The notes beneath the pieces were generated by a model. That model was not told the origin of the DNA and ran no database searches. It saw nothing but the letters and a program-made list of their open reading frames with translations. Of a DNA stretch of 64,000 nt, positions 11,040-55,512 are shown in pieces. The stretch lies in the NCBI RefSeq assembly GCF_030413175.1, contig NZ_CP129212.1:3720001-3784000 (forward strand), read 5' to 3'. Source of the stretch: Bradyrhizobium roseum. Its GTDB lineage: Bacteria > Pseudomonadota > Alphaproteobacteria > Rhizobiales > Xanthobacteraceae. The translations under genes and the position numbers were made by a program. Numbering within the stretch: the stretch's first letter is position 1; each line of letters starts with the position of its first letter.

Positions 11040-11053
11040 TTGATCTGTCTCAA
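11040..11053. promoter_or_regulatory. FixK/FNR-type box
   Basis: TTGATCTGTCTCAA fits the half-sites. The minus-strand start would fall near 11005, 25 bases before the DUF2892 gene. On the plus strand it would fall near 11088, about 114 bases before the Pat-like gene. Confidence 0.68.
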
Positions 11054-11201: not shown

Positions 11202-13895
11202 ATGTCCACCTATCGCCTAAAAAATCTGCTTGCGCCGCATTCCGTCGCGTTGATCGGGGCCAGTCCGCGCCACGGCTCGGTCGGCCGCGCCATCCTCGAC
11301 AACATTCGCAAGGCCCAGTTCAAGGGCCAGTTCGGTCTGGTCAACCCGCGCTATCACGAGATCGACGGTGTTGCGACGGCCGGAAGCATCGCAAAGCTGG
11401 GTTTTGCGCCTGAACTCGTTGTTCTCACCGCGCCGGCGACCGTCATTCCGGGTCTGATCGATGAGGCCGGCCGGCGCGGCGCGGTCGGCGCCGTCATCGT
11501 GAGTTCCGGGCTCGGCCACGGTCCGGGATCGCTGGCCGACGACGCGGAGCGGGCTGCGCGAAAATACGGCATGCGGCTGATAGGCCCGAATTGCCTGGGT
11601 ATCATGATGCCGGGCGTCAGCCTCAATGCGAGCTTTTCCGCGCATATGCCGGCGGCAGGAAACCTGGCGCTGATCTCGCAGTCCGGCGCCATTGCCGCCG
11701 GCATGGTGGATTGGGCAGCCCAGCGCTCCGTCGGCTTCTCCGGCATCGTCTCGATCGGCGACCAGCTCGATGTCGATATCGCCGACCTGCTCGATTACTT
11801 CGCGCTCGACGAAAAGACCCAGGCGATCTTGCTCTATATCGAGGCGATCAAGGATGCCCGCAAATTCATGTCGGCAGCGCGCGCCGCCGCCAGGATCAAG
11901 CCGGTGGTGGTCGTCAAGTCGGGCCGGATGGCGCAGGGCGCGCGGGCGGCCGCCACCCATACCGGTGCGCTCGCCGGGTCCGACGCCGTCTACGACGCCG
12001 CCTTCCAGCGTGCCGGAATCCTTCGCGTGTCGGATTTGCGCGAACTGTTCGACTGCGCCGAGACGCTCGGGCGGGTCAAATCGCCGCCCGGCAAGCGGCT
12101 TGCGATCCTGACCAACGGCGGCGGCATCGGGGTGCTCGCGATCGACCGGCTGGTCGAGCTCGGCGGCATTCCAGCCGAACTTTCTCCCGCGACGCGCAAG
12201 AAGCTCGATACGCTGCTGCCGCCGACATGGTCGAAGGCGAATCCGGTCGATATCATCGGCGATGCCGATATGGCACGCTATGCGGCGGCGCTCGAAGTAC
12301 TATTGGCAGACCCCGGCAACGATGCCGTCCTGGTGATGAACGTTCAGACCGCGCTCGCGCGCGCCGACGATATTGCTACGGCGGTCATCGGCGTGGTCGC
12401 AAAGTATCGCGCCGAGCATCGGATGTCGCCGAAGGCCGTGCTTGCGGTTTGGGTCGGGGCGGATCAGTCGATCAGCGACCTGCTGAGCGGCGCCGGAATT
12501 CCGAACTACCAGACCGGGGGCGATGCCGTCCTCGGCTTCATGCATCTGGTTCGACATCGCGAGGCGGTCGCGGCACTGGCGCAGGTTCCGCCCGCGATGC
12601 CGAGCGACTTCGCGCCCGATGTCGAAGCCGCGCGAGGGATCGTAGCCGCAGCGCTTGCCGACGGACGTCCTTGGCTCGATCCGATCGAGGTCAAGCGGCT
12701 GTTCGACGCCTACGACATCGCTGCCGTGCCGACCTTTGCAGCTGCCGATGCCGACGAGGCGGTCGCCCATGCCAACGCCATCTTCGCGCAGGGCAACACC
12801 GTCGTGCTCAAGATCATGTCGCGCGATATCGTGCACAAATCCGATGTCGGAGGCGTGATCCTCAATCTCACCAGTGCCGACGCCGTGCGCCAGGCGACCG
12901 CCGAGATTCTCGCGCGGGCAAGATCGCTGCGGCCGGAGGCCCGGATTACCGGCGTGATGGTGCAGGCGATGGTGGTGCGGGCGAAGTCCCGCGAACTCAT
13001 TCTCGGCCTTGCCGACGATCCGACCTTCGGCACCGTCGTCGTGTTCGGCCGCGGCGGCACCGCGGTCGAGATCATCAACGACAAGGCGCTGGCGCTGCCG
13101 CCGCTCGACCTGCAACTGGCGCGCAGTTTGATCGAGCGCACCCGCGTCTCGCGGCTGTTGCGCGCCTATCGCGACGTGCCGGCGGTAAAGCAGGACGCCG
13201 TCGCGATGGTCCTGGTCAAGCTGGCGCAGATGGCCGCCGATATTCCCGACATCCGCGGCCTCGATATCAATCCGCTGCTGGCCGACGAGGCCGGCGTGCT
13301 AGCCGTCGATGCGCGCGTCGTGGTCGGGCGCGTCGAGCGCAAGTTTCGCGGTTCCGGTCCGGCGAATTTCGCGGTGCGGCCCTATCCCACGCAATGGCAG
13401 CGTCATCTCGAGGTCAAGGACGGCTGGCGCGTCTTCGTCCGCCCGATCCGGCCCGAGGATGAGCCGTTGATCCATGAGATGCTGAAGCACGTCACCATGC
13501 AGGATCTGCGGCTGCGGTTCTTCGCGCCGATGAAGGAATTTTCCCACGAATTCATCGCCCGCCTGACCCAGCTCGACTATGCCCGGGCGATGGCCTTCGT
13601 CGCGTTCGACGAGACGAGCAACGATCCGGTCGGCGTGGTTCGAATCCATTCCGATTCGATCTACGAGAGCGGCGAATATGCCATCCTGTTGCGCTCCGAC
13701 CTCAAGGGCAGGGGACTGGGCTGGGCATTGATGCAGATGATCATCGAATATGCCAAATCCGAGGGGCTGAAAGCCATTTCAGGCGATGTGCTGGCCGACA
13801 ACAGCGTGATGCTGGCCATGTGCCGCAACCTCGGCTTCGAGGTGAAGCCGGATCCGCAGGAGCACGACATCTGCTGTGTGAGACTGACGCTGTAA
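11202..13895 (+). CDS. Acyl-CoA synthetase (NDP-forming)-like / GNAT acetyltransferase, Pat-type
   Basis: An 897-residue fusion. Residues 1-460 are the CoA-binding and ligase-like part (SVALIGASPRHGSVGRAIL opens the Rossmann domain). Residues 480-700 form an ATP-grasp domain, and the last 150 a GNAT acetyltransferase with LRSDLKGRGLGWALMQ as its acetyl-CoA loop. This is the layout of Pat/YfiQ protein lysine acetyltransferases, which use acetyl-CoA to modify metabolic enzymes such as acetyl-CoA synthetase. Whether the ligase half is active cannot be judged by eye. It stands alone, with a convergent nuclease gene 18 bases after its stop. Confidence 0.9.
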   Translation: MSTYRLKNLLAPHSVALIGASPRHGSVGRAILDNIRKAQFKGQFGLVNPRYHEIDGVATAGSIAKLGFAPELVVLTAPATVIPGLIDEAGRRGAVGAVIVSSGLGHGPGSLADDAERAARKYGMRLIGPNCLGIMMPGVSLNASFSAHMPAAGNLALISQSGAIAAGMVDWAAQRSVGFSGIVSIGDQLDVDIADLLDYFALDEKTQAILLYIEAIKDARKFMSAARAAARIKPVVVVKSGRMAQGARAAATHTGALAGSDAVYDAAFQRAGILRVSDLRELFDCAETLGRVKSPPGKRLAILTNGGGIGVLAIDRLVELGGIPAELSPATRKKLDTLLPPTWSKANPVDIIGDADMARYAAALEVLLADPGNDAVLVMNVQTALARADDIATAVIGVVAKYRAEHRMSPKAVLAVWVGADQSISDLLSGAGIPNYQTGGDAVLGFMHLVRHREAVAALAQVPPAMPSDFAPDVEAARGIVAAALADGRPWLDPIEVKRLFDAYDIAAVPTFAAADADEAVAHANAIFAQGNTVVLKIMSRDIVHKSDVGGVILNLTSADAVRQATAEILARARSLRPEARITGVMVQAMVVRAKSRELILGLADDPTFGTVVVFGRGGTAVEIINDKALALPPLDLQLARSLIERTRVSRLLRAYRDVPAVKQDAVAMVLVKLAQMAADIPDIRGLDINPLLADEAGVLAVDARVVVGRVERKFRGSGPANFAVRPYPTQWQRHLEVKDGWRVFVRPIRPEDEPLIHEMLKHVTMQDLRLRFFAPMKEFSHEFIARLTQLDYARAMAFVAFDETSNDPVGVVRIHSDSIYESGEYAILLRSDLKGRGLGWALMQMIIEYAKSEGLKAISGDVLADNSVMLAMCRNLGFEVKPDPQEHDICCVRLTL

Positions 13896-13912: not shown

Positions 13913-15505
13913 CTATTCCTCGAGCGCCCGGCGCAGCCGCCGGATGATGACGCCGCGCGCACGGTCGTCGGCCGCGGCATCGATGCGCTCGTTGATGTCC
14001 AGCACCAGCTTCGACATGTCATTGTGCCAGTCGAGCGCAACCACCGCCTCCGGCGCCAGCCGTCGCCGGCGGCCGGCATCGAGCGGCGTCGGTACGGCCG
14101 CTGACAGCTCGTAGATGTCGTCGAGCAGCGGCTGAAACACCCGAGCCGCCGGAATGATCCGTTCGGAGATGCGTTCAGCGAGGCCGGCAATTGCAGGTTC
14201 CTCGCCATGGACCAGAAACAGCCCGCGCTGAATGGGGCGACGCGCGGCGATCCATCGCGCCAGTTCGGACCCGTCGGCATGGCCGGAATAATCGTCGATG
14301 CTGCGGATGGTCGCGGCCACCTTGATCTCGGTGCCCTGGATACGAACCGCCTTGGCGCCGTCGACGAGAAACCGGCCCAGCGTTCCCTGTGCCTGGAAAC
14401 CGACCAGCAGCACGGTGGCCTTGGTGTTCCACAGCCAATTTCTGAGATGGTGCCGGATGCGCCCGGCATCGCACATGCCGCTGGCGGCAATGATGATGTG
14501 GAAGCCGGTCAGCCGGGCGATCCGCTTGCTTTCTTCGACCGTTTCGGTGAACCGCAGCTGTGGAGAGTTCAACAGCCGGCTGACGTCCACCTCGGGATCG
14601 AGGCTTGCGGCGTGCTTGCGGAATACCTCGGTCGCGCGGATCGCCAGGGGTGAATCGAGGAAGACCGGCGCCGCCGGGATCGCGCCGCGGTCCATCAGTT
14701 CGACCAGGTCAACGATCAGTTCCTGGGTGCGCTCCACCGCAAAGGCGGGAATGATCAGCGCGCCCTTGCGGCCTGCCGCATCGCAGACCTCCGCGGCCAG
14801 CCGGGCGCGGCGCACATCCGGCGACGTCGCAGCACGATCGCGGTCGCCATAGGTCGATTCCGAAATCACGTAATCGAAGCCGGAGGGGGCCTCGGGGTCC
14901 GGCTGGAGCAGTTTGGCGTCGGGCCCGATATCGCCGGACGCGAGAATGCGCAGCGGCTTTTCCGTCCCGCCGCGATCGGCGCATTCGATTTCGATCGAGG
15001 CCGAGCCCAGCAGATGCCCGGCATTCCAGTAGCGTGCGCGCACGCCCGGAACAACATCGACCCAGCTTTCGTAATCGACCGGAACAAACGATTGCAGGGC
15101 GGCGATGGCGTCGCCCTGGGTATAGATTGGGGTAACCTCGTCGCGGCCACGCGCGGCGTTGCGCCGGTTCAGCGCTGCGACCTCCGATTCCTGAATGCTG
15201 CCGGCGTCGGGTAGCATGTAAGAGCAGAGATCGACGGTACCGCGTGTCGCCAGGATGCGGCCGGTGAATCCGTGCCGCACGAGCTTGGGCAACAGGCCGC
15301 TGTGATCGATATGCGCATGGGTAAGCAGCACGGCATCGATATCGGCGGGGCGAAAGGGAAAAGCGCCGTAGTTCAGCGCTTTCAGGGTTTTCTGTCCCTG
15401 AAACAGCCCGCAATCGACCAGGAAACGCCCGGTACCCGTCTCGAAGAGATAGCACGAACCCGTGACGGTGCGCGACGCGCCGCAGAACCGGATGGTTACG
15501 CCCAT
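13913..15505 (-). CDS. Metallo-beta-lactamase/beta-CASP nuclease with RNA-specificity domain
   Basis: A 530-residue zinc-dependent hydrolase of the CPSF73/Ysh1-like group, probably an RNA exo- or endonuclease. THAHIDHSG holds the HxHxDH metal site. AGHLLGSASIEIE and the late DDYSGHADGSEL supply further metal histidines, and the beta-CASP region lies between. The last 60 residues are a short helical tail. Two start codons lie close together; the one at 15505 has GGAG eight bases before it, while ATG 15511 overlaps the prs-like stop. It is last in a run with the prs-like and phosphorylase genes, which suggests RNA breakdown coupled to nucleotide salvage. Confidence 0.9.
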   Translation of the reverse strand: MGVTIRFCGASRTVTGSCYLFETGTGRFLVDCGLFQGQKTLKALNYGAFPFRPADIDAVLLTHAHIDHSGLLPKLVRHGFTGRILATRGTVDLCSYMLPDAGSIQESEVAALNRRNAARGRDEVTPIYTQGDAIAALQSFVPVDYESWVDVVPGVRARYWNAGHLLGSASIEIECADRGGTEKPLRILASGDIGPDAKLLQPDPEAPSGFDYVISESTYGDRDRAATSPDVRRARLAAEVCDAAGRKGALIIPAFAVERTQELIVDLVELMDRGAIPAAPVFLDSPLAIRATEVFRKHAASLDPEVDVSRLLNSPQLRFTETVEESKRIARLTGFHIIIAASGMCDAGRIRHHLRNWLWNTKATVLLVGFQAQGTLGRFLVDGAKAVRIQGTEIKVAATIRSIDDYSGHADGSELARWIAARRPIQRGLFLVHGEEPAIAGLAERISERIIPAARVFQPLLDDIYELSAAVPTPLDAGRRRRLAPEAVVALDWHNDMSKLVLDINERIDAAADDRARGVIIRRLRRALEE

Positions 15506-15507
15506 GG

Positions 15508-16404
15508 TCATGGCTCCGTTAACTCGCCTTTCAACGCGTCGAAGAACAGTTCGTCGAGCGCGATGGCATTGGTGAAATGCGACACGCTGTGTGTCGAGCG
15601 GATCGAGCGAACCCGTGCCGAACGCATTTCGGGGTGGGCGGACTCCGGAAACAGGGCATGGGTCACGACGGCGTCGATGGCCGTCGCGCCGGCGGCGGTC
15701 AGCGCCCTGGCGCAGGCGATGATCGTGCCCCCGGACGAGACGATATCGTCGACGATCAGGGCGGGGTGGCCTGTAATGCACGCCCTGTCCGGAAATTCGA
15801 TCGCGACCGAGCGGTCGCCGCGCCGGATCTTCGTTGCAACGGTATGGCGCAGGTGGAGCCGGCCGGCGAGGTCGCTGACCCAGGGGAGCGATTCCGCATC
15901 CGGTCCGACCACAACGGTGTCCGGACCGAGCCCGGAATTTTGCAGCGCATCGGCTATCGCCGGCATGGCGGAGAGATTGTCGGATTGGATGCCGGGAAAG
16001 ACCGACGCGATGTCGGGCGTGCGATGCAGGTGTGCGTCGACGGTGACGACGCGGTCGAAGCATCGCGCCAGCATTCGGCCGACCACCTGCTGGCTGATGG
16101 CTTCGCCCGCGGTAAACGCTGTGTCTTGCCGCATGTAGCAGAGATACGGCGCGACGAGCACCAGACGCCTGGCGCCGCCGCGCCGCAGCGCTTCGGCCGC
16201 GAACATCAGCGCGATCAGTTTGTCGTTCGGATGGTTCATCGAGGCGTAGACGATCGTCGTGGCCGGCGCCGGACCGACCGTCACCCGCGTTTCACCATCG
16301 GGAAAGGCATGGACGGCGATTTCGTGAAACGGCACGCCGAGCCGGGCGGCGAGGGCGGCTGCGTCGCGCGCGGAGGACGGCAGGCCCTGAACGGCCACGC
16401 TCAA
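15508..16404 (-). CDS. Ribose-phosphate pyrophosphokinase-like protein
   Basis: A 298-residue protein of the PRPP synthetase family, shorter than the usual 310-320. It keeps [10 protein letters not shown] of the ribose-phosphate/ATP region, [17 protein letters not shown] and the PRPP loop [14 protein letters not shown]. The family makes PRPP from ribose 5-phosphate and ATP. Because its start overlaps the end of the AMP-phosphorylase-type gene and a nuclease gene follows, a special salvage substrate is possible. This is probably a second copy beside a housekeeping prs elsewhere, so I give no symbol. Confidence 0.88.
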
Positions 16405-17954
16405 GGCGCGGTCTCGACAGCAAGCCCCTGCCGCGCGCCGACGACATACCCGCTGTTGCGGGTGGCAGCCGCTACGGCAAGATCGAGCTCGCTCTGGTCA
16501 TAGGCGTGAATCCGATAGAGCGGCTGGCCCTTTTCGACGCGATCGCCGATTTTGCGAAACAGCCTGATGCCCGCGCCTTTGTCGATCGGCGCGCCCGCCG
16601 TTCGCGCCAGACGGTTTAGCTGCAGGCAATCGATTTCAGAGATCGCGCCGTCATCGGCGGCCTGGACGTCGAAGCTCAGCCTGCCAACGTCGTTGCGGCA
16701 TGTCGAAGGCCCCTGCGCGTCGATGATCTCCTGCATCTTTTTCAAGGCCGCGCCGCCGTCGAGCAGTTCGCGGGCGCGAGCATAGCCCGCGCCGCCGCGC
16801 AGTTGCGGGTCGTATTCGAGCAGATGCGCGGCGAGCCGCAGCGATTTTTCCCGCAGGTCCGCCGGCGCGTCCGTCTCGTTGGCCAGCACGGCCATCACGT
16901 CGGCGGCCTCCAGTACCGGACCGATGCCGTTGCCGATCGGCTGGCGGCCGTCGGTCGTGATCACCTCGACGGCAATGCCGAACTGGTCGCCGACGAACTC
17001 GAAGAGCTTGCGCAGCCGCATCGCCTCCGTGGCATTGGCGAGTTTCGCCGTCGGGCCGACCGGCAGGTCGATCAGGAGACGGGTCGAGCCGGCGGCGAGT
17101 TTCTTCGACATGATCGAGGCGACCATCTGCTCGCCGGTGTCGATGCAGAGCTGGCGCTCGACGGAGATCAGAATATCGTCCGCCGGCGACAGGTTGACGT
17201 GACCGCCCCAAACCAGGCAGCCGCGGCATGCCGCGACCACCTCCTTCATCTCGTCGACGGAAACGTCGACTCGCGCCAGGACTTCCATCGTGTCGGCCGT
17301 CCCGGCCGGAGACGTGATGGCGCGCGAGGACGTCTTCGGGATGGTGAGGCCATGGGCGGCGACGATCGGCACCACGATCATGGAGGTGCGGTTTCCCGGA
17401 ATGCCGCCGATGCAATGCTTGTCGACGACGAGGGGGCTCGGCCATTTCAGTTGCGTGCCGGCGACGGACATCGCGCGAACCAAGGCGAGCAGTTCTCGGC
17501 TGGTCATGAAGCTCGCCGAACTGATCAGGAACGCGGCCACCTCCATGTCCGAATAGCGGTAATGCGTCAGATCCCTGATGATGGCATCGATTTCGGCCGG
17601 CTCGAACGCGCGGCCCTGAATTTTGCCACGGACGGCATCGAGACTTTCAGGAGCGGCGGCGGGACTGACCGTCACCAGACTGCCGATCGGTTCGGCGAAA
17701 CGACGGAACGCCGGTTCGGAGAGCCCGATCTCGTCGGACCCGACCAGGCCGTCGTCGTCCGTGATCAGGAGGGTGGCCAGCACCACCTTCGAGCCGCGCC
17801 GCAGCTCGACCCGGCTGAATCCCCGAAAGATCTCCGGCCGCAGCGCGCTCGAATGACGCGAAATCACCACCACATTTTCGCGTCCGGTGTCGAGACTGAC
17901 GCGCCGGACTCTCAGTGGCGGGCGGGAATCATCCCGCTTGTCGTTTGGGGCCAT
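16401..17954 (-). CDS. AMP phosphorylase-type (thymidine phosphorylase family) enzyme
   Basis: A 517-residue phosphorylase, longer than bacterial DeoA (about 440) because of an N-terminal domain of roughly 90 residues. The core reads [19 protein letters not shown] and [20 protein letters not shown]. These resemble archaeal AMP phosphorylases rather than DeoA, whose corresponding loop has a GGVGD-type sequence. AMP phosphorylase converts AMP plus phosphate into ribose 1,5-bisphosphate and adenine. The stop overlaps the start of the prs-like gene. Activity on thymidine or other nucleosides cannot be ruled out from sequence. It follows a Usp gene by 30 bases. Confidence 0.85.
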
Positions 17955-17984: not shown

Positions 17985-18824
17985 TCAATGGGAGAACAGG
18001 ATCGGCAGCGGTGGCTTTGACAGCAGGCTCTTGGTGGCGCCGCCGAGGATGAACTCGCGCCAGCGTGGTTGGCCATAGGCGCCCATCACGAGAACGTCGA
18101 CCTGTTGTGCCGCGGTGTAGTCTTCGAGCACTTCGCCGATCGACCGGCCGTCGGCGTCGACCTTGTCGAGCACCACGTCGATGCCGTGGCGCGCCAGGTT
18201 TTTCGCCAGCGCTTCGGCCGAATGCCTGCTGTCCAGTTTCTTTTCGTTGACGACGGTGACGATCCGCACCTTTCCGGCCTTTTCGAGCAGCGGCATGGCA
18301 TCGGAGATCGCGCGGGCCGCAGCACGGCTGAAGTCCCAGGCGACGGCGACGGTGCCGAGCTGGAACGGGCGCGCGCGCGGCTTCTCGGGCAGGATCAAGG
18401 TCGGCCGTCCCGATCCGAAGATGACGGCTTCCGCATACCACTGGTCGTAGCTGTCCGGCACCGGCACGATGGTGAGATCGCGGAGCCGCGCGTGCTCGAC
18501 CAGGAGATCCGGCACCGCAAAAGTCGGGCATTTTTCCAGTTGGGTTTCGTGCAGTATCCCGGCCTTGTTGGCGGCGGTGTCGAAAGCCGCCAGCATTGCC
18601 TTGGCGTTGTTGCGGCTCTTCTCCGCCTCACCGGCGATCATGCCGGGAATATTGGCCATCGCGCCGGAGAGGAAGTGTCCGGGCACTTCCACATGCACCT
18701 CGCAGGCCACCGCCGCCAGATGTGCGCCGAAAGCGGCCGCGATTGCGACCGCATTCTCGGCAACCGTCGTCGGGGTGGGATCGGGGTAACTTGTCAGTGT
18801 CAGCAGAATGTCTTTGAACGCCAT
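17985..18824 (-). CDS. Universal stress protein, tandem Usp domains
   Basis: A 279-residue two-domain Usp. It starts MAFKDILLTLTSYPD and ends with GAYGQPRWREFILGGATKSL, where Gln replaces the usual His of the G-x2-G loop. AAGGAG stands close before the ATG. It lies 33 bases downstream of a P-type ATPase gene and 30 upstream of the AMP-phosphorylase-type gene, inside a minus-strand operon. A possible FixK box inside the end of the ATPase gene could also start transcription 17 bases before this gene. Confidence 0.92.
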   Translation of the reverse strand: MAFKDILLTLTSYPDPTPTTVAENAVAIAAAFGAHLAAVACEVHVEVPGHFLSGAMANIPGMIAGEAEKSRNNAKAMLAAFDTAANKAGILHETQLEKCPTFAVPDLLVEHARLRDLTIVPVPDSYDQWYAEAVIFGSGRPTLILPEKPRARPFQLGTVAVAWDFSRAAARAISDAMPLLEKAGKVRIVTVVNEKKLDSRHSAEALAKNLARHGIDVVLDKVDADGRSIGEVLEDYTAAQQVDVLVMGAYGQPRWREFILGGATKSLLSKPPLPILFSH

Positions 18825-18857: not shown

Positions 18858-21446
18858 TCAGGACGGGGTCGGGGTTTGATCCACCGCAAGCGGGTCACTT
18901 CGTCGCGTGGGCGGCTGCCGCCGCGGTCGCAGCAGCGGTTTGAGCATTTCCAGAGCGAGCAGTGAGACGAAGCCTGCGCCCAGAGTCAGGGCAAGATCGT
19001 TGGCGTGGAGCGGGCCGAAGCCGAAAAGCTGGTTCACCGCCGGCCACAGCAAAGTGACGGCCAGGATGATGGTGACCGCGGCGAGCACCGCGACCAGCGC
19101 CCGGTTCGGACGCTGCAGGGCGGCGAGCGGCGACGCGCTGAAGGAGCGATTGACCAGAATCAGGCTGACGATGACGATGATGAGCGAAAAGAACGTCAGC
19201 GCCCGCACTTCCGGAACGGGCATGCTCCAGTTCAGCGCCGCGACGTAAATGGCGGCGACCACCGCAAACGCCAGCAGCCCCTGTAACAGGCTCCAGGTGA
19301 CCAGCGCCCGCGAGAACAGCGGCTCATCGGGAGCGCGCGGCGGACGCCGCATGACATCGTCCTCCTCGGTCTCGGCCTCGAACACCAGCGAGCAGACGGG
19401 ATCGATCACCATTTCCAGCAAGGCGATATGGATCGGGCCGAACAACAACGGCGTGCCCAAGACCAAGGGCAGCAGCGCCAGGCCCGCGATGGGGACGTGA
19501 ACAGCAAAGATGAAGCTCATCGCCTTGCGCAGATTGTCGTAGATGCGGCGTCCGAGGCGGATCGATTTGACGATCGAGCCGAAATCGTCGTCGAGCAGCA
19601 CGATGGCGGACGCTTCGCGCGCCACGTCGGTGCCGCGCCCGCCCATGGCGATCCCGATATGCGCTGATTTCAGCGAGGGAGCGTCGTTGACACCATCGCC
19701 GGTCATGGCGACGATTTCGCCATTGGCCTTGTAGGCGTTGACGATGCGCAGCTTCTGGTTTGGCGAGATCCGCGCGAACACAACGGCCCTTTGCACCAGG
19801 CTGGCCAGCTCCGCCTCGCCCAATCGTTCGAGCTGTTCGCCGGTCACGAGTTCGCCGTGTCCGAGCCCGGCCTGCTGGGCGATCGCGTTGGCGGTTGCCG
19901 GATAGTCGCCGGTGATCATGACGGCCTTGATGCCGGCGGTCCGGCATTCGTGGACCGCCTCGACGACGGTGGCGCGCAGCGGGTCGGCGAGGCCAACCAG
20001 CCCCATGAATTCGAAGTCCAGTTCGCGCGGCGATGCCGGCCAGGACGTCCTAGCAAGACGGGCACGGGCCACGCCAAGCACGCGCAAGCCGGCAGAGGCC
20101 ATCGCGTCGATCGATTGCGTCAGCGCCGCACGCTCCGCAGTTTTCAGCCGGCAAAGACCAGCGATCGCCTCCGGGGCGCCCTTGGCGGCGACAAGGTGCT
20201 CCCGCCGGTCGTCGCTGGTCTGCCAGATGTGGGTGACGGCGAGGAGATCGGGCCGAAGACCATAGGCATGCACAAGCTTCCAGTGCGGATGCCGGTATGC
20301 GGCCTCGGTCGTCCGCTCGCGCGCCAGGCTATGGAACGCCCGTTCCATCGGATCGAACGGCTCGGCTGCGCTGGCAAGCAGACCGAATTCGATCAAGTCG
20401 TGGAATCGCGCGGGCATCGCCGTGTCTTGCGGTGGGCGGAAGACGGTTCCGTCCATCAGCCGCAGTTCGATGATGGTCATCCGGTTTTCGGTCAGGGTGC
20501 CGGTCTTGTCGGTGCACAGCACGGTGGCGGAACCCAGCGTCTCGATCGCCGCCGCGCGCCGCGTCAGGACGCGGGCCAGCGAAATGCGCCAGGCGCCCAT
20601 TGCCATGAATACGGTCAACACGACCGGAAACTCCTCCGGCAGCATCGACATGCCCAGTGCGATCCCGGCCAGCACCGCGTCCAGCCATCCGCCGCGCATA
20701 AAGCCATAGAGCAGGACTGCGAGCACACAGACCGCACCACCGATAACGGCAAACAGCCGGACGACGCGCCGCGTCTGCACCTGCAGCCGCGGCGGCTCGG
20801 TTTCGAGGCTGGCGAGCGACTGGCCAATCTGGCCGATCTCGCTTTGCGCGCCAATGGCGAAGACTTCCGCCAGTCCCGCGCCTCGCACCACCAGCGAGCC
20901 GGAGAAGATTTGCGGCAGGTCGTCGCCGCCTGGGCGCTGCGGTCGGGCCTCGCCGCGGTCATCCCAGGCGACCTTGCGCACCGGCACCGATTCCCCGGTC
21001 AGGGTGGATTCGTCGGCCTGCAGATCCGTACACTGCAAGAGAATGGCGTCGGCAGGCACCCGGTCGCCCTCGGAGAGAACGATGAGGTCGCCCCGCACGA
21101 CGTCGCGACCGGCGATGCGCTTGCGTTCGCCGTCGCGAATGACGAGCGCGCGGGGACTGGTGAGGTCGCGCAACGCCTCCAGCACCCGCTCGGTCCGCGT
21201 CTCCTGCACGACGGTGATCAGGATCGACATGGTCGCAAAGGCGAGCAGGATGAAGGCTTCCTTGAGGTCGCCGAGCGCCAAATAGACGCCGCCGCCGACC
21301 AGCAGCAGCGCCAGCATGGGCTCGCGCAGCACCTCTATCGCGATCCGAAGCGGCGTGCGCCGATCCGCTTGCGGAAGTTCGTTATGTCCATCCGCGCGAA
21401 GCCGTGCCGCCGCATCGGCTTCGGTGAGACCGGAAAATGGTGTCAC
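18858..21446 (-). CDS. P-type cation-transporting ATPase (P2/Ca-Mg type)
   Basis: An 862-residue membrane pump with the normal order of parts. These are an actuator domain with STLTGESVPV, the M4 motif MLPEEFPVVLT, the phosphorylation motif DKTGT (Asp313) and the hinge MTGDGVNDAPSL. Six C-terminal membrane segments follow. PEEFP resembles the M4 ion site of calcium-type P2 pumps, but the ion is uncertain. There is no N-terminal heavy-metal domain. A 141-residue unknown protein ends three bases before it and a Usp follows. Confidence 0.9.
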   Translation of the reverse strand: MTPFSGLTEADAAARLRADGHNELPQADRRTPLRIAIEVLREPMLALLLVGGGVYLALGDLKEAFILLAFATMSILITVVQETRTERVLEALRDLTSPRALVIRDGERKRIAGRDVVRGDLIVLSEGDRVPADAILLQCTDLQADESTLTGESVPVRKVAWDDRGEARPQRPGGDDLPQIFSGSLVVRGAGLAEVFAIGAQSEIGQIGQSLASLETEPPRLQVQTRRVVRLFAVIGGAVCVLAVLLYGFMRGGWLDAVLAGIALGMSMLPEEFPVVLTVFMAMGAWRISLARVLTRRAAAIETLGSATVLCTDKTGTLTENRMTIIELRLMDGTVFRPPQDTAMPARFHDLIEFGLLASAAEPFDPMERAFHSLARERTTEAAYRHPHWKLVHAYGLRPDLLAVTHIWQTSDDRREHLVAAKGAPEAIAGLCRLKTAERAALTQSIDAMASAGLRVLGVARARLARTSWPASPRELDFEFMGLVGLADPLRATVVEAVHECRTAGIKAVMITGDYPATANAIAQQAGLGHGELVTGEQLERLGEAELASLVQRAVVFARISPNQKLRIVNAYKANGEIVAMTGDGVNDAPSLKSAHIGIAMGGRGTDVAREASAIVLLDDDFGSIVKSIRLGRRIYDNLRKAMSFIFAVHVPIAGLALLPLVLGTPLLFGPIHIALLEMVIDPVCSLVFEAETEEDDVMRRPPRAPDEPLFSRALVTWSLLQGLLAFAVVAAIYVAALNWSMPVPEVRALTFFSLIIVIVSLILVNRSFSASPLAALQRPNRALVAVLAAVTIILAVTLLWPAVNQLFGFGPLHANDLALTLGAGFVSLLALEMLKPLLRPRRQPPTRRSDPLAVDQTPTPS
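18876..18889. promoter_or_regulatory. Possible internal FixK/FNR-type box
   Basis: Read on the minus strand it is TTGCGGTGGATCAA, fitting TTGC-N6-TCAA. It lies in the last codons of the ATPase gene. The expected start near 18841 would be 17 bases before the Usp gene, with its AAGGAG included. Confidence 0.5.
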
Positions 21447-21919: not shown

Positions 21920-22405
21920 TCAACCCGGCTCGGCGGGGGATTTCGCTGCGGTTGCGCTGGATTTCTTCAGGCTCCTGACGATGATCGTGATCAGCGGCAC
22001 CAGCACCAGCGGCAGCACGCTGTTCAGGGGGTGCTGCACCATGCCGGTGAACTGCGACTGCAGCGCGCGGGCCTCGCCCTGCAGGGCCTCGACCGCGGAG
22101 CCGTGAATCTCGGTGGCGAGTTCGAGTTCACGACCGGCTGGCGGCCGGCCCCCGATCACGAACAGGACGGCTGCGATGACGAAATTGGCAGCGCCGAGGA
22201 TGGCGGCGGCCGAAATAGCGCTCCAGATCTGCACCAATGCGAAATAGGCCGACAATTCCAGCATCAGCAATCCGAACGCCGCGATCAGCGCCGCAAATGC
22301 GCGCAAGCCCAGCCCGACCAGCATGTGCCGCATCCGGATTTCGGCGATGATGCGGTCGGTGCGCCACAACGCGCGCAGGTGCTTGATGACGTTCTCGCTG
22401 TTCAA
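21920..22405 (-). CDS. Holin-superfamily / YqjE-like membrane protein
   Basis: A 161-residue protein with two adjacent hydrophobic segments in the middle (about residues 32-60 and 64-88) and a third near the C-terminus (LNSVLPLVLVPLITIIV). The layout resembles the phage holin 3_6/YqjE group of stress-associated membrane proteins; nothing suggests a phage. It starts one base after the stop of the DUF883 gene, matching the yqjD-yqjE arrangement of enterobacteria. It is probably the second gene of the FixK-driven cluster starting near 22705. Confidence 0.7.
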   Translation of the reverse strand: MNSENVIKHLRALWRTDRIIAEIRMRHMLVGLGLRAFAALIAAFGLLMLELSAYFALVQIWSAISAAAILGAANFVIAAVLFVIGGRPPAGRELELATEIHGSAVEALQGEARALQSQFTGMVQHPLNSVLPLVLVPLITIIVRSLKKSSATAAKSPAEPG

Positions 22406-22406
22406 G

Positions 22407-22682
22407 TCAATGTCTCCTCAGCATAAAGCCGACGGCAATCCCGAGCGCAAAGGCAGAGGCGATCGCCACGAGCGGTCGCTCGGCGACCAACCGCTCGACA
22501 TGCTCCTCTTCCTCGCTCAAGGTGTCCCCGAGATCGCTCAGGGTCGCCTTGATTTGTTCGACGAACGCTTCGGATTTGTCTTTGGCGGCGTTGAATACGT
22601 CGTCGGCTGGCGCATGTAGGAGGCGCGAAATCTCGCCTTTCAGCGCCAGCAGTTCGTCACTCAGTTCGCTGGATTTGAACAT
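22407..22682 (-). CDS. DUF883 (YqjD/ElaB-type) membrane-anchored protein
   Basis: A 91-residue protein with a charged helical N-terminal part (about 1-65) and one C-terminal membrane helix (VAIASAFALGIAVGFMLRRH) ending in RRH. This is the classic YqjD/ElaB shape, linked to ribosome tethering in stationary phase in E. coli. Longer starts exist upstream. ATG 22682 is chosen because the FixK box at 22740-22753 predicts transcription from about 22705. It heads the long minus-strand run to 13913. Confidence 0.82.
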   Translation of the reverse strand: MFKSSELSDELLALKGEISRLLHAPADDVFNAAKDKSEAFVEQIKATLSDLGDTLSEEEEHVERLVAERPLVAIASAFALGIAVGFMLRRH

Positions 22683-22739
22683 TGCGTCCGCCTTGCTTTC
22701 CTCGTGGTTCAAATTGTAGGCGAGACGCAAAAGCGCCAC

Positions 22740-22753
22740 TTGATTTGGGTCAA
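22740..22753. promoter_or_regulatory. FixK/FNR-type box (minus-strand operon)
   Basis: TTGATTTGGGTCAA. The predicted minus-strand start near 22705 lies 23 bases before the DUF883 gene. Confidence 0.8.
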
Positions 22754-26303: not shown

Positions 26304-26317
26304 TTGATGTGGATCAA
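26304..26317. promoter_or_regulatory. FixK/FNR-type box
   Basis: TTGATGTGGATCAA, between divergent cytochrome c and FNR-type genes. Predicted starts are near 26269 (minus) and 26352 (plus), so the regulator may control its own gene. Confidence 0.82.
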
Positions 26318-26414
26318 TCGGCGGGCGGTGGATCCGCTAGAATGAAATATATCTCCGGCTGGTCCGCCATGGCCGGAGAATCGCGTCAATCCGGCGCTTG
26401 AACGGGTAGGGGTA

Positions 26415-27128
26415 ATGATACGAACCATCTCTCCGAATCGGGCAAGTTTCGGGCGCTGTTCCGCCTGTACCGTGCGGTCGCTCAGCATCTGCGGGGCGCT
26501 CGACCAGGCCGACCTTGCGGAGTTCGAACGGATCGCGCGCCAGGTGCATTTTGCGCCCAACGAAGCGCTGTTCTCGGTGGGGCAGGTCGCAAATTCGGTG
26601 CACAGCCTGACCTCGGGCGTCGCGCGCCTCTACAAGCTCTTGCCGGACGGGCGGCGTCAGGTGATCGGCTTTGCGCTGCCGGGCGACTTCCTCGGCACGG
26701 CGCCGGCCGACCGCTTCAGCTTTTCTGCGGACGCCATTGATTCTGTGACAGCCTGCCGTCTCTCCAGGGAAGCGTTCACGCACTTCATCGAGCACAGGCC
26801 GCATTTCCTGATTCGGATCAACGAGTTCGCGGCACGGGAGCTGACCATGGCGCAGGAGCAGATGCTGCTGCTGGGCCGGCGCACGGCAGAAGAGAAGGTC
26901 GCATCCTTCCTCCTCAACTGGCGGCAGCGCCTGGCCCAGATCGGCGACGAGCAGCCGACCATTTCGCTTCCGATGAGCCGGCAGGACATCGCGGATTATC
27001 TCGGGCTGACGATCGAAACCGTCAGCCGGACGCTGACCCGGTTCGAGCGTGAAAAGATGCTGATCATCGTCACGGGTGGCGTTCGTCTCCTGGACCCGGA
27101 TCGGGCTGCGGCCATGGCCGCGGCATAA
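26415..27128 (+). CDS. Crp/FNR-family regulator with iron-sulfur cysteines (FnrN/FixK1-like)
   Basis: A 237-residue transcription factor. The N-terminus has Cys15, Cys18 and Cys26 (CSAC...IC), and Cys114 lies in the sensor domain; together they fit the four ligands of an oxygen-labile [4Fe-4S] cluster. A cyclic-nucleotide-like fold spans 30-140. The helix-turn-helix is near 190-220, with the recognition helix ETVSRTLTRFE typical of proteins that bind TTGAT-N4-ATCAA. It differs in this from FixK2, which lacks the cluster. A FixK box lies 98 bases upstream, allowing autoregulation. Confidence 0.93.
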   Translation: MIRTISPNRASFGRCSACTVRSLSICGALDQADLAEFERIARQVHFAPNEALFSVGQVANSVHSLTSGVARLYKLLPDGRRQVIGFALPGDFLGTAPADRFSFSADAIDSVTACRLSREAFTHFIEHRPHFLIRINEFAARELTMAQEQMLLLGRRTAEEKVASFLLNWRQRLAQIGDEQPTISLPMSRQDIADYLGLTIETVSRTLTRFEREKMLIIVTGGVRLLDPDRAAAMAAA

Positions 27129-27175
27129 GATCCGATATCGGCCGTGGGAAATCCCGCGTGAGCGGTGGCGCCTTT

Positions 27176-27189
27176 TTGATCCATATCAA
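27176..27189. promoter_or_regulatory. FixK/FNR-type box (perfect)
   Basis: TTGATCCATATCAA matches the full consensus on both sides. It predicts a start near 27224, 23 bases before a 46-residue membrane protein gene. Confidence 0.85.
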
Positions 27190-27246
27190 AGTACCGAATG
27201 GGGGCCTTAGGCATGTTTTCTTCCCCAACAACGGAGGATCAGCCCC

Positions 27247-27387
27247 ATGCCAACCGAGTCCTTGCTTGTCACCGTCGGCGTCGTCGCGATGTTCGTGGTC
27301 TTTGCCGTGGTCCTGTACTGGGGTGACCGGCAGACTCGACCGAACCAGCTTGCCGGCTCGGATCATGGCAGGCGCCGCGCGTTTTGA
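27247..27387 (+). CDS. 46-residue single-helix membrane protein
   Basis: I do not recognise this small protein. It begins MPTESLLVTVGVVAMFVVFA, continues with VVLYWGDRQT, and ends in a basic tail. One membrane helix covers about residues 6-25, with the charged end likely in the cytoplasm. AACGGAGGATC stands nine bases before the ATG, and a perfect FixK box lies at the ideal distance, so it is very probably expressed at low oxygen. Its place between the FNR-type regulator and fixN suggests a link with oxidase assembly or respiration. FixQ-like length is suggestive only. Confidence 0.72.
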   Translation: MPTESLLVTVGVVAMFVVFAVVLYWGDRQTRPNQLAGSDHGRRRAF

Positions 27388-27468
27388 CCGGCCGGTCCGC
27401 CCGGACGGAGCCATTCACCGGGTGAGCGAGGCGAGAACCGCCAGCCGCTCCGATGATCCCGATCTCGC

Positions 27469-27482
27469 TTGATATGCGTCAA
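27469..27482. promoter_or_regulatory. FixK/FNR-type box
   Basis: TTGATATGCGTCAA. The predicted start near 27517 lies 24 bases before the small gene at 27541. Confidence 0.78.
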
Positions 27483-27540
27483 TACACCGGGCGCTGGTCC
27501 GCGCTTTGGTTGCACCACACGCCTGCGAGGTCTTGTTTTG

Positions 27541-27771
27541 ATGATGTCCGCCGATACGGAAAGACTGACTGCCGCCATCGGTCGCGGATGGCGGGCAATC
27601 GCCGGCAGGTTCGGGCACATCGCCACGTCTCATCCGGAATTTTACGGGTGTGCGAATCGACGGGAAGATTCGTCGCATAGCGGAAACGCGCGGCTGAACG
27701 AGCCCGATGCATCTGCCGAATCCGCCGCGTCACTGCAGGCGCGGCTGCCGATCGGCCCGTCCTGCTGCTGA
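27541..27771 (+). CDS. Hypothetical 76-residue protein with FixK-type promoter
   Basis: No family is recognised. The protein is polar with a helical start (TERLTAAIGRGWRAIAGRFG), a His/Ser-rich middle and a C-terminal CC. GCGAGG lies ten bases before the first of two adjacent ATGs. An earlier in-frame TTG falls inside the FixK box and cannot be used if transcription starts near 27517. It stands between the 46-residue membrane protein and fixN. The ideal promoter spacing is the best evidence that it is real. Confidence 0.55.
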   Translation: MMSADTERLTAAIGRGWRAIAGRFGHIATSHPEFYGCANRREDSSHSGNARLNEPDASAESAASLQARLPIGPSCC

Positions 27772-27826
27772 AGCCATTGCAACGGCGATACATCTTCATT
27801 CTTTCCTATTGGGCAACGGCAGGAAA

Positions 27827-27840
27827 TTGACCTCGATCAA
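27827..27840. promoter_or_regulatory. FixK/FNR-type box of fixNOQP
   Basis: TTGACCTCGATCAA. It predicts a start near 27875, 25 bases before fixN, as in other rhizobial fixN promoters. Confidence 0.9.
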
Positions 27841-27899
27841 TTTCTCCCTCGCGAAGCTGTGATCAGTAAGCTTCGCATCCGCACAAGAGAATCTCATCC

Positions 27900-29546
27900 A
27901 TGACCCAATCCCTAACCGCAAAAAAGATGACGCACGGCGAAGCCGGTCTGGTGCTGGTCTTTTCGCTATCCGCGTTTCTGTGTCTGTTCGCTGCGGCTAA
28001 CGCGCTGGACACGGCGTTTGCCTTTCACGCCTTGCTGTTCAGCGCCGCCAGTCTCGCGTCGATCATTGTCATCGGCAACCGCTACTTCGCGCGTACGTCG
28101 CTGCCGCCGCAGGAGATCAACGGCCGCCCCAACTACAATATGGGCCCGATCAAGTTCGCGGCCGTGATGTCGGTGATCTGGGGCATCGCCGGCTTTGCCG
28201 TCGGACTGCTGATCGCCTCGCAGCTGGCGTGGCCCGCGCTCAACCTGGATTTGCCGTGGACCAGTTTTGGCCGGCTGCGGCCGCTGCACACCTCGGCGGT
28301 GATCTTCGCCTTCGGCGGCAACGTATTGATCGCGACGTCCTTCTATGTCGTGCAGAAGACCTGCCGCACGAGGCTGGCGGGCGATCTCGCGCCCTGGTTC
28401 GTCGTCGTCGGCTACAATTTCTTCATCCTGATCGCCGGCACCGGCTATCTGCTCGGCGTCACCCAGTCCAAGGAATATGCCGAACCGGAATGGTACGCCG
28501 ATCTGTGGCTGACCATCGTCTGGGTGATGTATCTGCTGGTCTTCCTGATGACCCTCGTGAAGCGAAAAGAGCCGCATATCTTCGTCGCCAACTGGTTCTA
28601 TCTCGCCTTCATCGTCACCATTGCCGTGCTGCATCTCGGCAACAATCCGGCGCTGCCGGTCTCGGTGTTCGGCTCGAAATCCTACGTCGCCTGGGGTGGG
28701 GTGCAGGACGCCATGTTCCAGTGGTGGTACGGCCACAACGCGGTCGGCTTCTTTCTGACCGCCGGCTTCCTCGCCATCATGTATTACTTCATTCCCAAGC
28801 GCGCCGAGCGGCCAATCTATTCCTACCGCCTGTCGATCATCCACTTCTGGGCGCTGATCTTCCTCTACATCTGGGCCGGCCCGCACCATCTGCACTACAC
28901 GGCGCTGCCGGACTGGGCGCAGACGCTCGGCATGACATTCTCGATCATGCTGTGGATGCCGTCATGGGGTGGGATGATCAACGGCCTGATGACGCTGTCG
29001 GGCGCCTGGGACAAGCTTCGTACCGATCCCGTGCTGCGCATGCTGGTCGTTTCCGTCGCCTTCTACGGCATGTCGACTTTCGAAGGTCCGATGATGTCGA
29101 TCAAGGTCGTGAATTCGCTCAGCCACTACACTGACTGGACCATCGGCCATGTGCACTCGGGCGCGCTGGGCTGGGTAGGCTTCGTCTCCTTCGGCGCGTT
29201 GTACTGCCTCGTCCCGTGGCTTTGGGAACGCAAGGGGCTCTACAGCCTGAAGCTGGTCAACTGGCATTTCTGGACCGCCACGATCGGCATCGTGCTGTAC
29301 ATCTCGGCGATGTGGGTGTCGGGAATTCTGCAGGGCCTGATGTGGCGCGCCTACACCTCGCTCGGCTTCCTCGAATATTCCTTCATCGAAACCGTGGAGG
29401 CGATGCATCCCTTCTACATCATTCGCGCGGCGGGCGGAGGACTGTTCCTGATCGGATCGTTGATCATGGCCTATAATCTCTGGATGACGGTGCGCGCCGG
29501 CGAAGCGGAAGTGCAGTCGCCCGTGGCCCTCCAGCCGGCGGAATGA
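27900..29546 (+). CDS. fixN: cbb3-type cytochrome c oxidase subunit I
   Basis: A 548-residue membrane protein with about 12 helices. It is the catalytic subunit (CcoN) that reduces oxygen to water with very high affinity and pumps protons. Histidines in YGHNAVGFF (His279) and PHHLHY (His329, His330) are the expected copper-B ligands, and the haem ligands lie in PLHTSAVIF and [10 protein letters not shown]. Length and motifs are normal. The FixK box at 27827 gives direct low-oxygen control. fixO starts 11 bases after its stop, heading the fixNOQP operon. Confidence 0.97.
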
Positions 29547-30476: not shown

Positions 30477-31349
30477 ATGACCGAACACAGCGATATCGAT
30501 CACGTTTCCGGAAGGTCGACCACCGGTCACCAGTGGGACGGCATCAAGGAACTCAACACGCCGCTCCCGCGCTGGTGGGTGATCACCTTCTACCTGACCA
30601 TCGTCTGGGCGATCGGCTACTGGATCGTGTACCCGGCCTGGCCGCTGCTCCGCAGCCATACGACCGGCATCTGGAACTACTCCACGCGCGCCGAGGTCGC
30701 CAACGAACTCGCCAACCTGGAAAAGATCCGCGGTGACAAGATGGTGGCGCTCGGCGCCGCTCCGCTGGAGGAGATCGAGAAGAATCCCGCCCTGTTGGCG
30801 CTGGCCCGCGCCCGCGGCAAGACGGTGTTCGGCGACAATTGCGCGCCCTGCCACGGCAGCGGCGGCGCCGGCGCCAAGGGCTATCCCAACCTGAACGACG
30901 ACGAATGGGTGTGGGGCGGCAGCCTTGACCAGATCATGCAGACGATCCAGTTCGGCGTTCGCTCGGGGCACGCGAAAGCGCATGAGGGGGCCATGCTGGC
31001 GTTCGGCAAGGACGGTATCCTCAAGAAGGACCAGATCGTCACCGTCGCCAACTACGTGCGGTCGCTATCCGGCCTGTCGACGGCGGCGGGATATGACGCG
31101 GCGGCCGGCAAGAAGATCTTTGCCGAAAACTGCACATCGTGCCACGGCGACAACGCCAAGGGAAATCAGGAACTCGGCGCGCCCGATTTGACCGACAAGA
31201 TCTGGCTCTTCGGTTCGGACGAGGCGACGCTGGTTGAGACCATCAGCAACGGCCGTGCCGGCGTGATGCCTGCCTGGGTCGACCGGCTCGATCCTTCCAC
31301 GATCAAGGCGCTGACGGTCTATGTCCACTCGCTCGGCGGAGGCAAATAG
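30477..31349 (+). CDS. fixP: cbb3-type cytochrome c oxidase subunit III (di-haem)
   Basis: A 290-residue anchored di-haem cytochrome (CcoP) that receives electrons for the oxidase. A membrane helix (VITFYLTIVWAIGYWIVYP) lies near residue 35. Haem sites are Cys122-x2-Cys125-His126 (CAPCH) and Cys219-x2-Cys222-His223 (CTSCH). The first 30 residues are cytoplasmic. It ends fixNOQP. The fixGHIS operon follows with its own FixK box 30 bases after the stop. Confidence 0.96.
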   Translation: MTEHSDIDHVSGRSTTGHQWDGIKELNTPLPRWWVITFYLTIVWAIGYWIVYPAWPLLRSHTTGIWNYSTRAEVANELANLEKIRGDKMVALGAAPLEEIEKNPALLALARARGKTVFGDNCAPCHGSGGAGAKGYPNLNDDEWVWGGSLDQIMQTIQFGVRSGHAKAHEGAMLAFGKDGILKKDQIVTVANYVRSLSGLSTAAGYDAAAGKKIFAENCTSCHGDNAKGNQELGAPDLTDKIWLFGSDEATLVETISNGRAGVMPAWVDRLDPSTIKALTVYVHSLGGGK

Positions 31350-31379: not shown

Positions 31380-31393
31380 TTGAGGTGGATCAA
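31380..31393. promoter_or_regulatory. FixK/FNR-type box of fixGHIS
   Basis: TTGAGGTGGATCAA. It predicts a start near 31428, 21 bases before fixG. Confidence 0.82.
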
Positions 31394-31448
31394 ACGGCTT
31401 CTCAAAGCTCGGCCTACAGTGAACTTCCGAGAAGAGATCAGCCCTGCG

Positions 31449-32931: not shown

Positions 32932-33429
32932 ATGAGCCAGAAACGCGCGATACGACCGATCACCGGACGCATGGTGTTCTTCATGGTGGCGGCGTTCTTC
33001 GCCGTCGTGATCGGGGTCAACCTCGTCATGATGCGCCTGGCGATCCAGACCCTGCCGGGCACCGAAGTCGACAGCGCCTACAGCGCCAGCCTCGCCTATG
33101 CCAAGGAGATCGCCACCGCCCGCGACCAGAGCGCACGCAACTGGAAGGTCGATGCCCACGTCGAACGCAGCGGGCAGGGCGGCGCCATGTTGCAGGTCGA
33201 GGTGCGCGACAGTGCCGGTCAGCCGATGTCCGGGCTGACGTTCCAGGGCCGGTTCGAGCGACCGACGGATCGCCGCGCCGACCGGCCGGTCGCACTCGCG
33301 GAAACGGGGATCGGCATCTATCGCGGCAGCGCGGAGACGGTCGCGCCGGGCCAATGGGATCTGGTGCTCGAAGGCGTTGCCGCGGGGCAGCGGCTGTTCC
33401 TGTCGAAGAACCGCGTCGTGTTGAACTAG
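32932..33429 (+). CDS. fixH: cbb3 oxidase assembly protein FixH
   Basis: A 165-residue protein with one N-terminal membrane helix (MVFFMVAAFFAVVIGVNLVM) and a periplasmic beta-rich domain, as in the FixH/CcoH family that associates with the oxidase during assembly. GAGGAAG precedes the ATG at 32932. It follows fixG by 19 bases. Between it and fixI lies part of a dispersed repeat. Confidence 0.93.
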   Translation: MSQKRAIRPITGRMVFFMVAAFFAVVIGVNLVMMRLAIQTLPGTEVDSAYSASLAYAKEIATARDQSARNWKVDAHVERSGQGGAMLQVEVRDSAGQPMSGLTFQGRFERPTDRRADRPVALAETGIGIYRGSAETVAPGQWDLVLEGVAAGQRLFLSKNRVVLN

Positions 33430-33480
33430 AGCCTGATCCGGAACAGCGGGAACCGTTTGCCCGAAGCGATCATGCTCAAA
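33429..33480 (+). repeat. Partial copy of dispersed repeat inside fixGHIS
   Basis: From the fixH stop codon, AGCCTGATCCGG and further GCGATCATGCTCAAACAG match the minus-strand reading of the repeat at 2582-2652. The hairpin half found there is missing, so this copy should not end transcription between fixH and fixI. Confidence 0.6.
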
Positions 33481-33497
33481 CAGAAGAAGGCCAGATC

Positions 33498-55442: not shown

Positions 55443-55512
55443 GCCTGACCGCATCTAATTCGCCTGTGGCCGTGATGCCAGTGGCGCCCGCGGCGTGGTC
55501 GACGCGCGAACG

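Follow-up and report, generated by a model that had tools for sequence, protein, structure and literature searches.

A three-gene operon of Bradyrhizobium roseum as a candidate low-oxygen module for RNA breakdown without ribose 1,5-bisphosphate isomerase

A stretch of 64,000 nucleotides from the genome of Bradyrhizobium roseum (contig NZ_CP129212.1 of assembly GCF_030413175.1, positions 3,720,001 to 3,784,000; the whole stretch is hereafter called the window, and coordinates refer to it) carries three tightly joined genes on its minus strand, encoding a thymidine phosphorylase-like (TP-like) enzyme, a Prs-like protein and a beta-CASP nuclease. This gene order recurs far beyond chance, and the trio is best read as a bacterial form of the archaeal nucleoside 5'-monophosphate (NMP) pathway that does without the isomerase. 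We put about even weight on the operon being a low-oxygen module for the breakdown of RNA and nucleotides, whose Prs-like partner would return ribose 1,5-bisphosphate (R15P) to ribose 5-phosphate (R5P) or phosphoribosyl pyrophosphate (PRPP). A sequence-only reading of the locus had already proposed an RNA-to-ribose-phosphate salvage operon; the recurrence of the unit, the kinship to NMP phosphorylase and the oxygen control speak for that proposal, while the fate it suggested in RuBisCO and PhnN as a general route find little support. The three genes, in their order on the minus strand, are the following:

17954..16401, minus strand: TP-like or NMP-phosphorylase-type enzyme with an archaeal-type N-terminal domain, 517 aa, TIGR02645
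16404..15508, minus strand: Prs-like protein of the PRK07199 kind, 298 aa, TTG start codon
15511..13913, minus strand: beta-CASP/RMMBL nuclease, 532 aa, ATG start codon, Pfam Beta-Casp, RMMBL and Lactamase_B

Consecutive genes share 4 bases. The start codon of the Prs-like gene overlaps the TP-like stop within TTGA at 16404-16401, and that of the beta-CASP gene overlaps the Prs-like stop within ATGA at 15511-15508, in agreement with the near-gapless joints claimed from the letters. The source genome is a single contig of 7.32 Mb, and its closest named relatives are mostly Bradyrhizobium in a list from which the window's own genome or those nearest to it may be missing.

The coupling of these genes was followed across genomes. 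In a phylum sample of 299 genomes, 34 had a TIGR02645 match over the cut-off, 4 of them among the 7 genomes of the window's genus, and these TP-positive genomes were compared with 34 TP-negative ones that were hand-picked from the same sample, mostly from TP-positive families, and are thus not random. The Prs-like family was over its cut-off in 33 of the 34 TP-positive genomes and in 0 of the 34 TP-negative genomes, and the remaining TP-positive genome (G285) has an adjacent Prs-like copy at 299.6 bits, below the cut-off. Among 36 TP matches over the cut-off, the Prs-like gene is immediately adjacent in 33 (one truncated at a contig end) and within 5 kb in 2, and the last match is split over contigs, one piece adjoining a Prs-like gene. 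At 80 loci of near relatives the Prs-like gene follows the TP gene in 66, and a beta-CASP gene is present in 77, whereas beside the phylum pairs the beta-CASP gene was found in 16 of 34, the window's own locus coming on top. The earlier reading would have given way if the three genes were rarely neighbours elsewhere, and the pair proved nearly constant. In one genome (G262; locus L130, 4099-9091) the pair lies directly beside genes matching ATP synthase gamma and alpha/beta subunits.

The TP-like protein is over the cut-off of the putative thymidine phosphorylase family TIGR02645 (699.3 bits vs 434.6) and of PRK04350 (694 vs 434), and its scores with the thymidine and pyrimidine phosphorylase equivalog models are all below their cut-offs (134 vs 570.7, 142 vs 559 and 195 vs 269 bits). 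Its nearest solved relative is 4ga5 (345 bits), which we take to be the AMP phosphorylase of Thermococcus, the structure entry itself being titled putative thymidine phosphorylase, and the next kind is the pyrimidine nucleoside phosphorylase (PyNP) 1brw at 133 bits, the nucleoside phosphorylases as a whole reaching only 96-133 bits in the solved-protein search. The earlier placement of the enzyme closer to NMP phosphorylase than to thymidine phosphorylases is thus upheld, and so is the long archaeal layout with its motif: the alignment to 4ga5 takes in the archaeal N-terminal domain, starting at query residue 17, identity to the Thermococcus chain is 198/478 (41.4%), and KTSSRAITS is present, SSRAITS being kept in the bacterial group. 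This group has fixed residues of its own, with DKHC where Thermococcus has DVHS and an altered stretch ahead of SIMSKK, and since these differ from Thermococcus the bases accepted by the TP-like enzyme may differ as well. The enzyme of T. kodakarensis phosphorolyses AMP, CMP and UMP, giving R15P (PMC9700705). By this kinship the TP-like enzyme would split NMPs with phosphate into a free base and R15P. In a tree of 52 chosen rows of 120 plus the Thermococcus chain (L154, a short TP match, is absent from the filtered set) the single archaeal phosphorylase allows nothing firm on origin.

The beta-CASP protein carries the Beta-Casp, RMMBL and Lactamase_B domains, and HAHxDH and other motifs, presumably metal-binding, are conserved across 101 rows. 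Its top solved relative is the beta-CASP RNase TTHA0252, which aligns over most of its length at 234 bits; unlike TTHA0252, the window's protein has a C-terminal extension of about 80 aa and is clustered with a phosphorylase. From its family, the enzyme probably cuts RNA to 5'-nucleotides. Its top NCBIfam score is to type VII CRISPR Cas14 (330.9 bits vs a cut-off of 800), a family resemblance only. In the phylum loci the gene lies downstream of the pair in 6 cases and upstream of TP in 10, and in a tree built from 34 rows selected out of the 101 the upstream and downstream kinds form two strongly supported groups, with L157 as the sole exception, downstream in position and grouped with the upstream kind; the tree carries a long-branch warning, and L139, whose beta-CASP gene is broken, is absent from the filtered set. 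The TP tree also keeps the two kinds largely apart. That two beta-CASP subfamilies came to be joined to one partner argues for the genes acting together. A supposed fusion of beta-CASP and TP in L144 was rejected, for the long open frame is not in the frame of the beta-CASP match.

The Prs-like protein is over the cut-off of NF005537/PRK07199 (375.4 vs 322 bits), and the housekeeping Prs is encoded separately in the same genome (C1:6301185, 378 bits to TIGR01251). It has the fold and catalytic core of PRPP synthetase (Prs), and FPDxE, RQD, H125, KxR and DD of the common core are kept in the PRK07199 alignment of 107 rows. In addition, H127, R128, E171 (of GPDxES) and D197 are invariant in 107/107 rows, and L126 and W175 are each found in 106/107. 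The clade signatures sit around H125-R128 and E171, and at GPDxES five solved Prs proteins have SPDxGG or APDxGA instead, with G-G or G-A for E-S. These residues suggest a special task, of a kind that they do not specify. The Prs-like partner would act at the node of R15P, PRPP and R5P in place of the archaeal R15P isomerase.

The earlier reading had placed stress genes and a FixK box ahead of the trio, and these are indeed present in the minus-strand gene run of which the trio is part:

22740..22753, strand not assigned: FixK/FNR-like box TTGATTTGGGTCAA, 1 mismatch to TTGATNNNNATCAA
21450-21875, 21920-22405 and 22407-22739, minus strand: three small open reading frames heading the run, Pfam matches weak or none
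18858..21446, minus strand: cation-transporting P-type ATPase, Pfam E1-E2_ATPase and Cation_ATPase_C
17985..18824, minus strand: universal stress protein, Pfam Usp, 30 nt upstream of the TP-like gene

The box heads the entire run and lies about 4.8 kb from the TP-like start. The stress-protein gene is probably co-transcribed with the TP-like gene, and a comparable one precedes TP in close relatives too (e.g., L003-L007 and L163). The window operon is predicted to be under FixK control. In Bradyrhizobium septentrionale (L163) the trio lies on a plasmid typed conjugative and, like the window's trio, is preceded by a stress-protein gene. Across the window (589-56720) we counted 15 FixK-like boxes at up to 1 mismatch vs 1.02 expected, and at 63 of 78 near-relative loci a box with up to 2 mismatches lies within 300 nt upstream of TP, vs 12.7% of 3950 random stretches, which are not matched in base composition, the near relatives moreover not being independent; the two further loci of the 80 were left out, L073 with its gene cut at a contig end and L057 with too little upstream sequence.

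Low-oxygen control through FixK is published for the orthologous operon of B. diazoefficiens. There, bll3117-bll3116-bll3115 match the trio in annotation and order and have an upstream FixK2 box (PMC9104804, PMC6515984). All three proteins are up in 0.5% oxygen, with log2 changes of 2.9 for bll3115, 4.4 for bll3116 and 2.1 for bll3117, and an adjoining column, which we read as transcripts from the table without its footnote, gives 15.4-, 7.7- and 5.1-fold, respectively (PMC6515984, Table 2). Deletion of fixK2 in low oxygen changed bll3117 by -6.6-fold and bll3115 by -30.6-fold, and the same table (PMC9104804, Table 2) gives the FixK2 box ATGATCTGGGTCAA at -74, predicts the operon, and contains a phosphoketolase with an acetate/propionate kinase (bll2518-bll2517). 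Unlike that of B. diazoefficiens, the window's box heads a longer run that includes the stress protein and the P-type ATPase. In the open-licence literature searched, expression data turned up but no enzymology of the bacterial proteins, and an earlier suggestion on R15P may exist elsewhere.

Taken in sequence, the beta-CASP enzyme would degrade RNA to 5'-NMPs, the TP-like enzyme would convert an NMP and phosphate to a free base and R15P, and the Prs-like partner, replacing R15P isomerase, would bring R15P to R5P or PRPP; in the window's genome, R5P would then enter the ordinary pentose phosphate route. The archaeal pentose bisphosphate pathway, or NMP shunt, of Thermococcus (PMC9700705 and PMC12628685) has the same long phosphorylase layout, at 41% identity and with SSRAITS, and the step from NMP to R15P is probable in the bacterial trio by this likeness. 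The bacterial side differs in having no R15P isomerase over the cut-off, and a Prs-like partner, often with an RNase gene, instead. Indeed, R15P isomerase was over its cut-off in 0 of the 68 genomes (34 TP-positive, 34 TP-negative). As the earlier reading had stated, neither this isomerase nor RuBisCO is encoded within the window: the best isomerase-family match of the window's genome (143.4 bits, under the cut-off of 314.1) and its one RuBisCO large-subunit match (443.8 bits) both lie outside.

In several bacteria the cluster reaches further into metabolism, for the genes of phosphoketolase-acetate kinase fermentation sit inside it. Out of 173 plasmid records with a phosphorylase match, 17 loci were opened, chosen for spread of organisms, and near TP they have the Prs-like gene in 15 and beta-CASP in 15. 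Among the 36 phylum loci and the 17 plasmid loci, phosphoketolase is cluster-borne in 5 and 5, acetate kinase in 2 and 3, and type II glyceraldehyde-3-phosphate dehydrogenase (GAPDH) in 0 and 4, respectively, in flanks of about 5 kb for the genomes (some cut) and 8-10 kb for the plasmids, and the phosphoketolase share is no survey. On a Criblamydia plasmid, genes for phosphoketolase, glucan phosphorylase, an ATP-cone protein, beta-CASP, TP, Prs-like and acetate kinase form one run. Both Azospirillaceae plasmids opened (L155 and L170) are without an adjacent Prs-like gene, and in Azospirillum oryzae a Prs-like gene is recorded on a different plasmid of that species.

Some of these clusters contain a divergent phosphoketolase-like family that is only distantly similar to the known phosphoketolases (136.8 bits at best vs cut-offs of 777-1518), with genes at L158:4236-6605, L174:4896-7376 and L177:4956-7283, and most records annotate it as xylulose 5-phosphate 3-epimerase. 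At 47% identity or more, the family occurs in 15 plasmid records and shares the plasmid with a TP-like gene in 14, being within 5 kb of TP in 12 and further off in 2, and in the last, from Alteromonas, the gene adjoins that of acetate kinase, and the 5 kb range inspected holds no TP. In the Rhizobium rosettiformans cluster an adenylate kinase gene (L158:1-311) lies near the Prs-like, phosphoketolase-like, beta-CASP and TP genes.

Given the cluster-borne phosphoketolase, acetate kinase or type II GAPDH of several bacteria, ribose could be fermented there for ATP. A bolder and rather unlikely form of the proposal has the Prs-like enzyme run backwards to save energy (R15P + AMP -> R5P + ADP, or PRPP + AMP -> R5P + ATP), RNA being burned as a low-oxygen fuel. 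RNA would pass through NMP and R15P to R5P with one phosphate bond saved, as judged from the chemistry, and in cluster-rich bacteria R5P would be passed to phosphoketolase, giving acetyl phosphate for acetate kinase. Under standard conditions the reverse Prs reaction on R15P is uphill, and it is feasible only at high AMP and low R5P. If true, bacteria would have an 'RNA fermentation' that needs neither isomerase nor RuBisCO, and a Prs relative would have a new reaction.

Several observations weigh against an RNA breakdown module with a Prs-like partner acting on R15P. In twelve of the 80 near relatives TP and beta-CASP occur without an intervening Prs-like gene (2 further loci end before its expected position), and in 11 of these 12 genomes no Prs-like protein is over the cut-off elsewhere, one genome having one. 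One of the 11, the genome of L005, a metagenome-assembled genome, also yielded no housekeeping Prs and looks incomplete. These 12 show that the pairing of TP and Prs-like genes, strong as it is, is open to loss, in this case among Bradyrhizobium relatives. No beta-CASP gene was found in the fetched stretch at 18 of 34 phylum loci, some of them cut by contig ends and the rest of the genomes not searched. The TP-like protein, unlike the archaeal phosphorylase, scores below the AMP-phosphorylase equivalog cut-off (TIGR03327 AMP_phos, 479.5 vs 535 bits), and the Prs-like core keeps the ordinary Prs residues, so that it may simply make PRPP. In Table 2 of PMC6515984 the B. diazoefficiens trio has a dash, with no fold change, in the soybean-bacteroid and FixK2-target columns. 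Moreover, a genome search found no phosphoketolase in the window's own genome, unlike the cluster-rich bacteria, and genome-wide it occurs in 10 of 34 TP-positive vs 6 of 34 TP-negative genomes, showing no association with TP; phosphoketolase as a universal partner was rejected on both counts.

The alternative that survives best, an unlikely one in our estimate, is that R15P from AMP goes to PRPP by PhnN, or to ribulose 1,5-bisphosphate and 3-phosphoglycerate by isomerase and RuBisCO, leaving the Prs-like protein as a spare PRPP synthetase. The window's genome has both PhnN (196.6 bits vs a cut-off of 156) and the RuBisCO large subunit, PhnN is over the cut-off in 12/12 near-relative genomes without an adjacent Prs-like gene, and all 27 TP-positive genomes without PhnN have a Prs-like protein over the cut-off. 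Every TP-positive genome searched thus has one or the other, a rule that we give little weight, as we do the 12/12, because PhnN is over the cut-off in all 7 genus genomes examined, three TP-negative ones among them. As a general partner PhnN was rejected, since it shows no association with TP (7/34 TP-positive genomes, the window's own included, vs 11/34 TP-negative). The feeding of PRPP that the earlier reading allowed is available through PhnN, the known enzyme, to those 7 alone. The isomerase and RuBisCO route was rejected for want of any isomerase over the cut-off in the 68 genomes, and with it the suggestion that R15P feeds RuBisCO; the latter is found in 18 of 34 TP-positive genomes (TP-positive only searched).

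Quite unlikely is the building direction, in which the Prs-like protein would supply PRPP, and nucleotides would be restored by the TP-like enzyme, which would couple free bases to ribose phosphate. The conserved Prs core residues would suit it, the TP-like fold is in common with the PRPP-using TrpD (weak matches), and phosphorolysis is reversible; the RNase neighbour, the fermentation genes at some loci and the switching on of the trio when oxygen is short point the other way. Plain nucleoside salvage by a thymidine or pyrimidine phosphorylase is about as unlikely: databases label the protein thymidine phosphorylase, and SIMSKK, which we assume to be the base-contact segment, is common to it and PyNP, but the model scores, the archaeal-type N-terminal domain, the retained SSRAITS and the closeness to the Thermococcus NMP phosphorylase set out above all weaken this label. 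That the genes are stress-island passengers without joint function is already largely refuted: the cluster does occur on plasmids with metal and stress genes, but the Prs-like pairing holds in 33/34 vs 0/34 genomes over many families, the genes overlap by 4 bases, and separate beta-CASP subfamilies occupy the same locus.

Elsewhere in the window, six of the 15 FixK-like boxes (26304-29104) and a seventh at 31380 lie around a cluster of regulator and oxidase genes, and a convergent neighbour of the trio, given for context only, has a FixK-like box of its own at 11040-11053:

26415-27128: FNR/CRP-type regulator
27900-29546: COX1, fixN by position
30477-31349: fixP-like gene
31380-32912: fixG-like gene
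33354-35690: heavy-metal P-type ATPase
11202..13895, plus strand: acyl-CoA-ligase-like protein fused to a GNAT (protein acetyltransferase-like) domain, Pfam ATP-grasp_5, Succ_CoA_lig and GNAT

A Sir2 gene (54636-55454) is found in the same window as this acetyltransferase-like fusion, and together with the box of the latter it may point to regulation by acetylation when oxygen is low.

The R15P pathway known so far belongs to archaea and depends on the isomerase. The phosphorylase-Prs pair in nearly every TP-positive proteobacterial genome sampled, without the isomerase, implies that R15P can be used in a second way. An isomerase-free NMP pathway of this kind would give a function to low-oxygen-induced genes that are labelled thymidine phosphorylase and ribose-phosphate pyrophosphokinase, and would suggest that such cells, once respiration fails, turn to recycled RNA as a source of carbon or energy.

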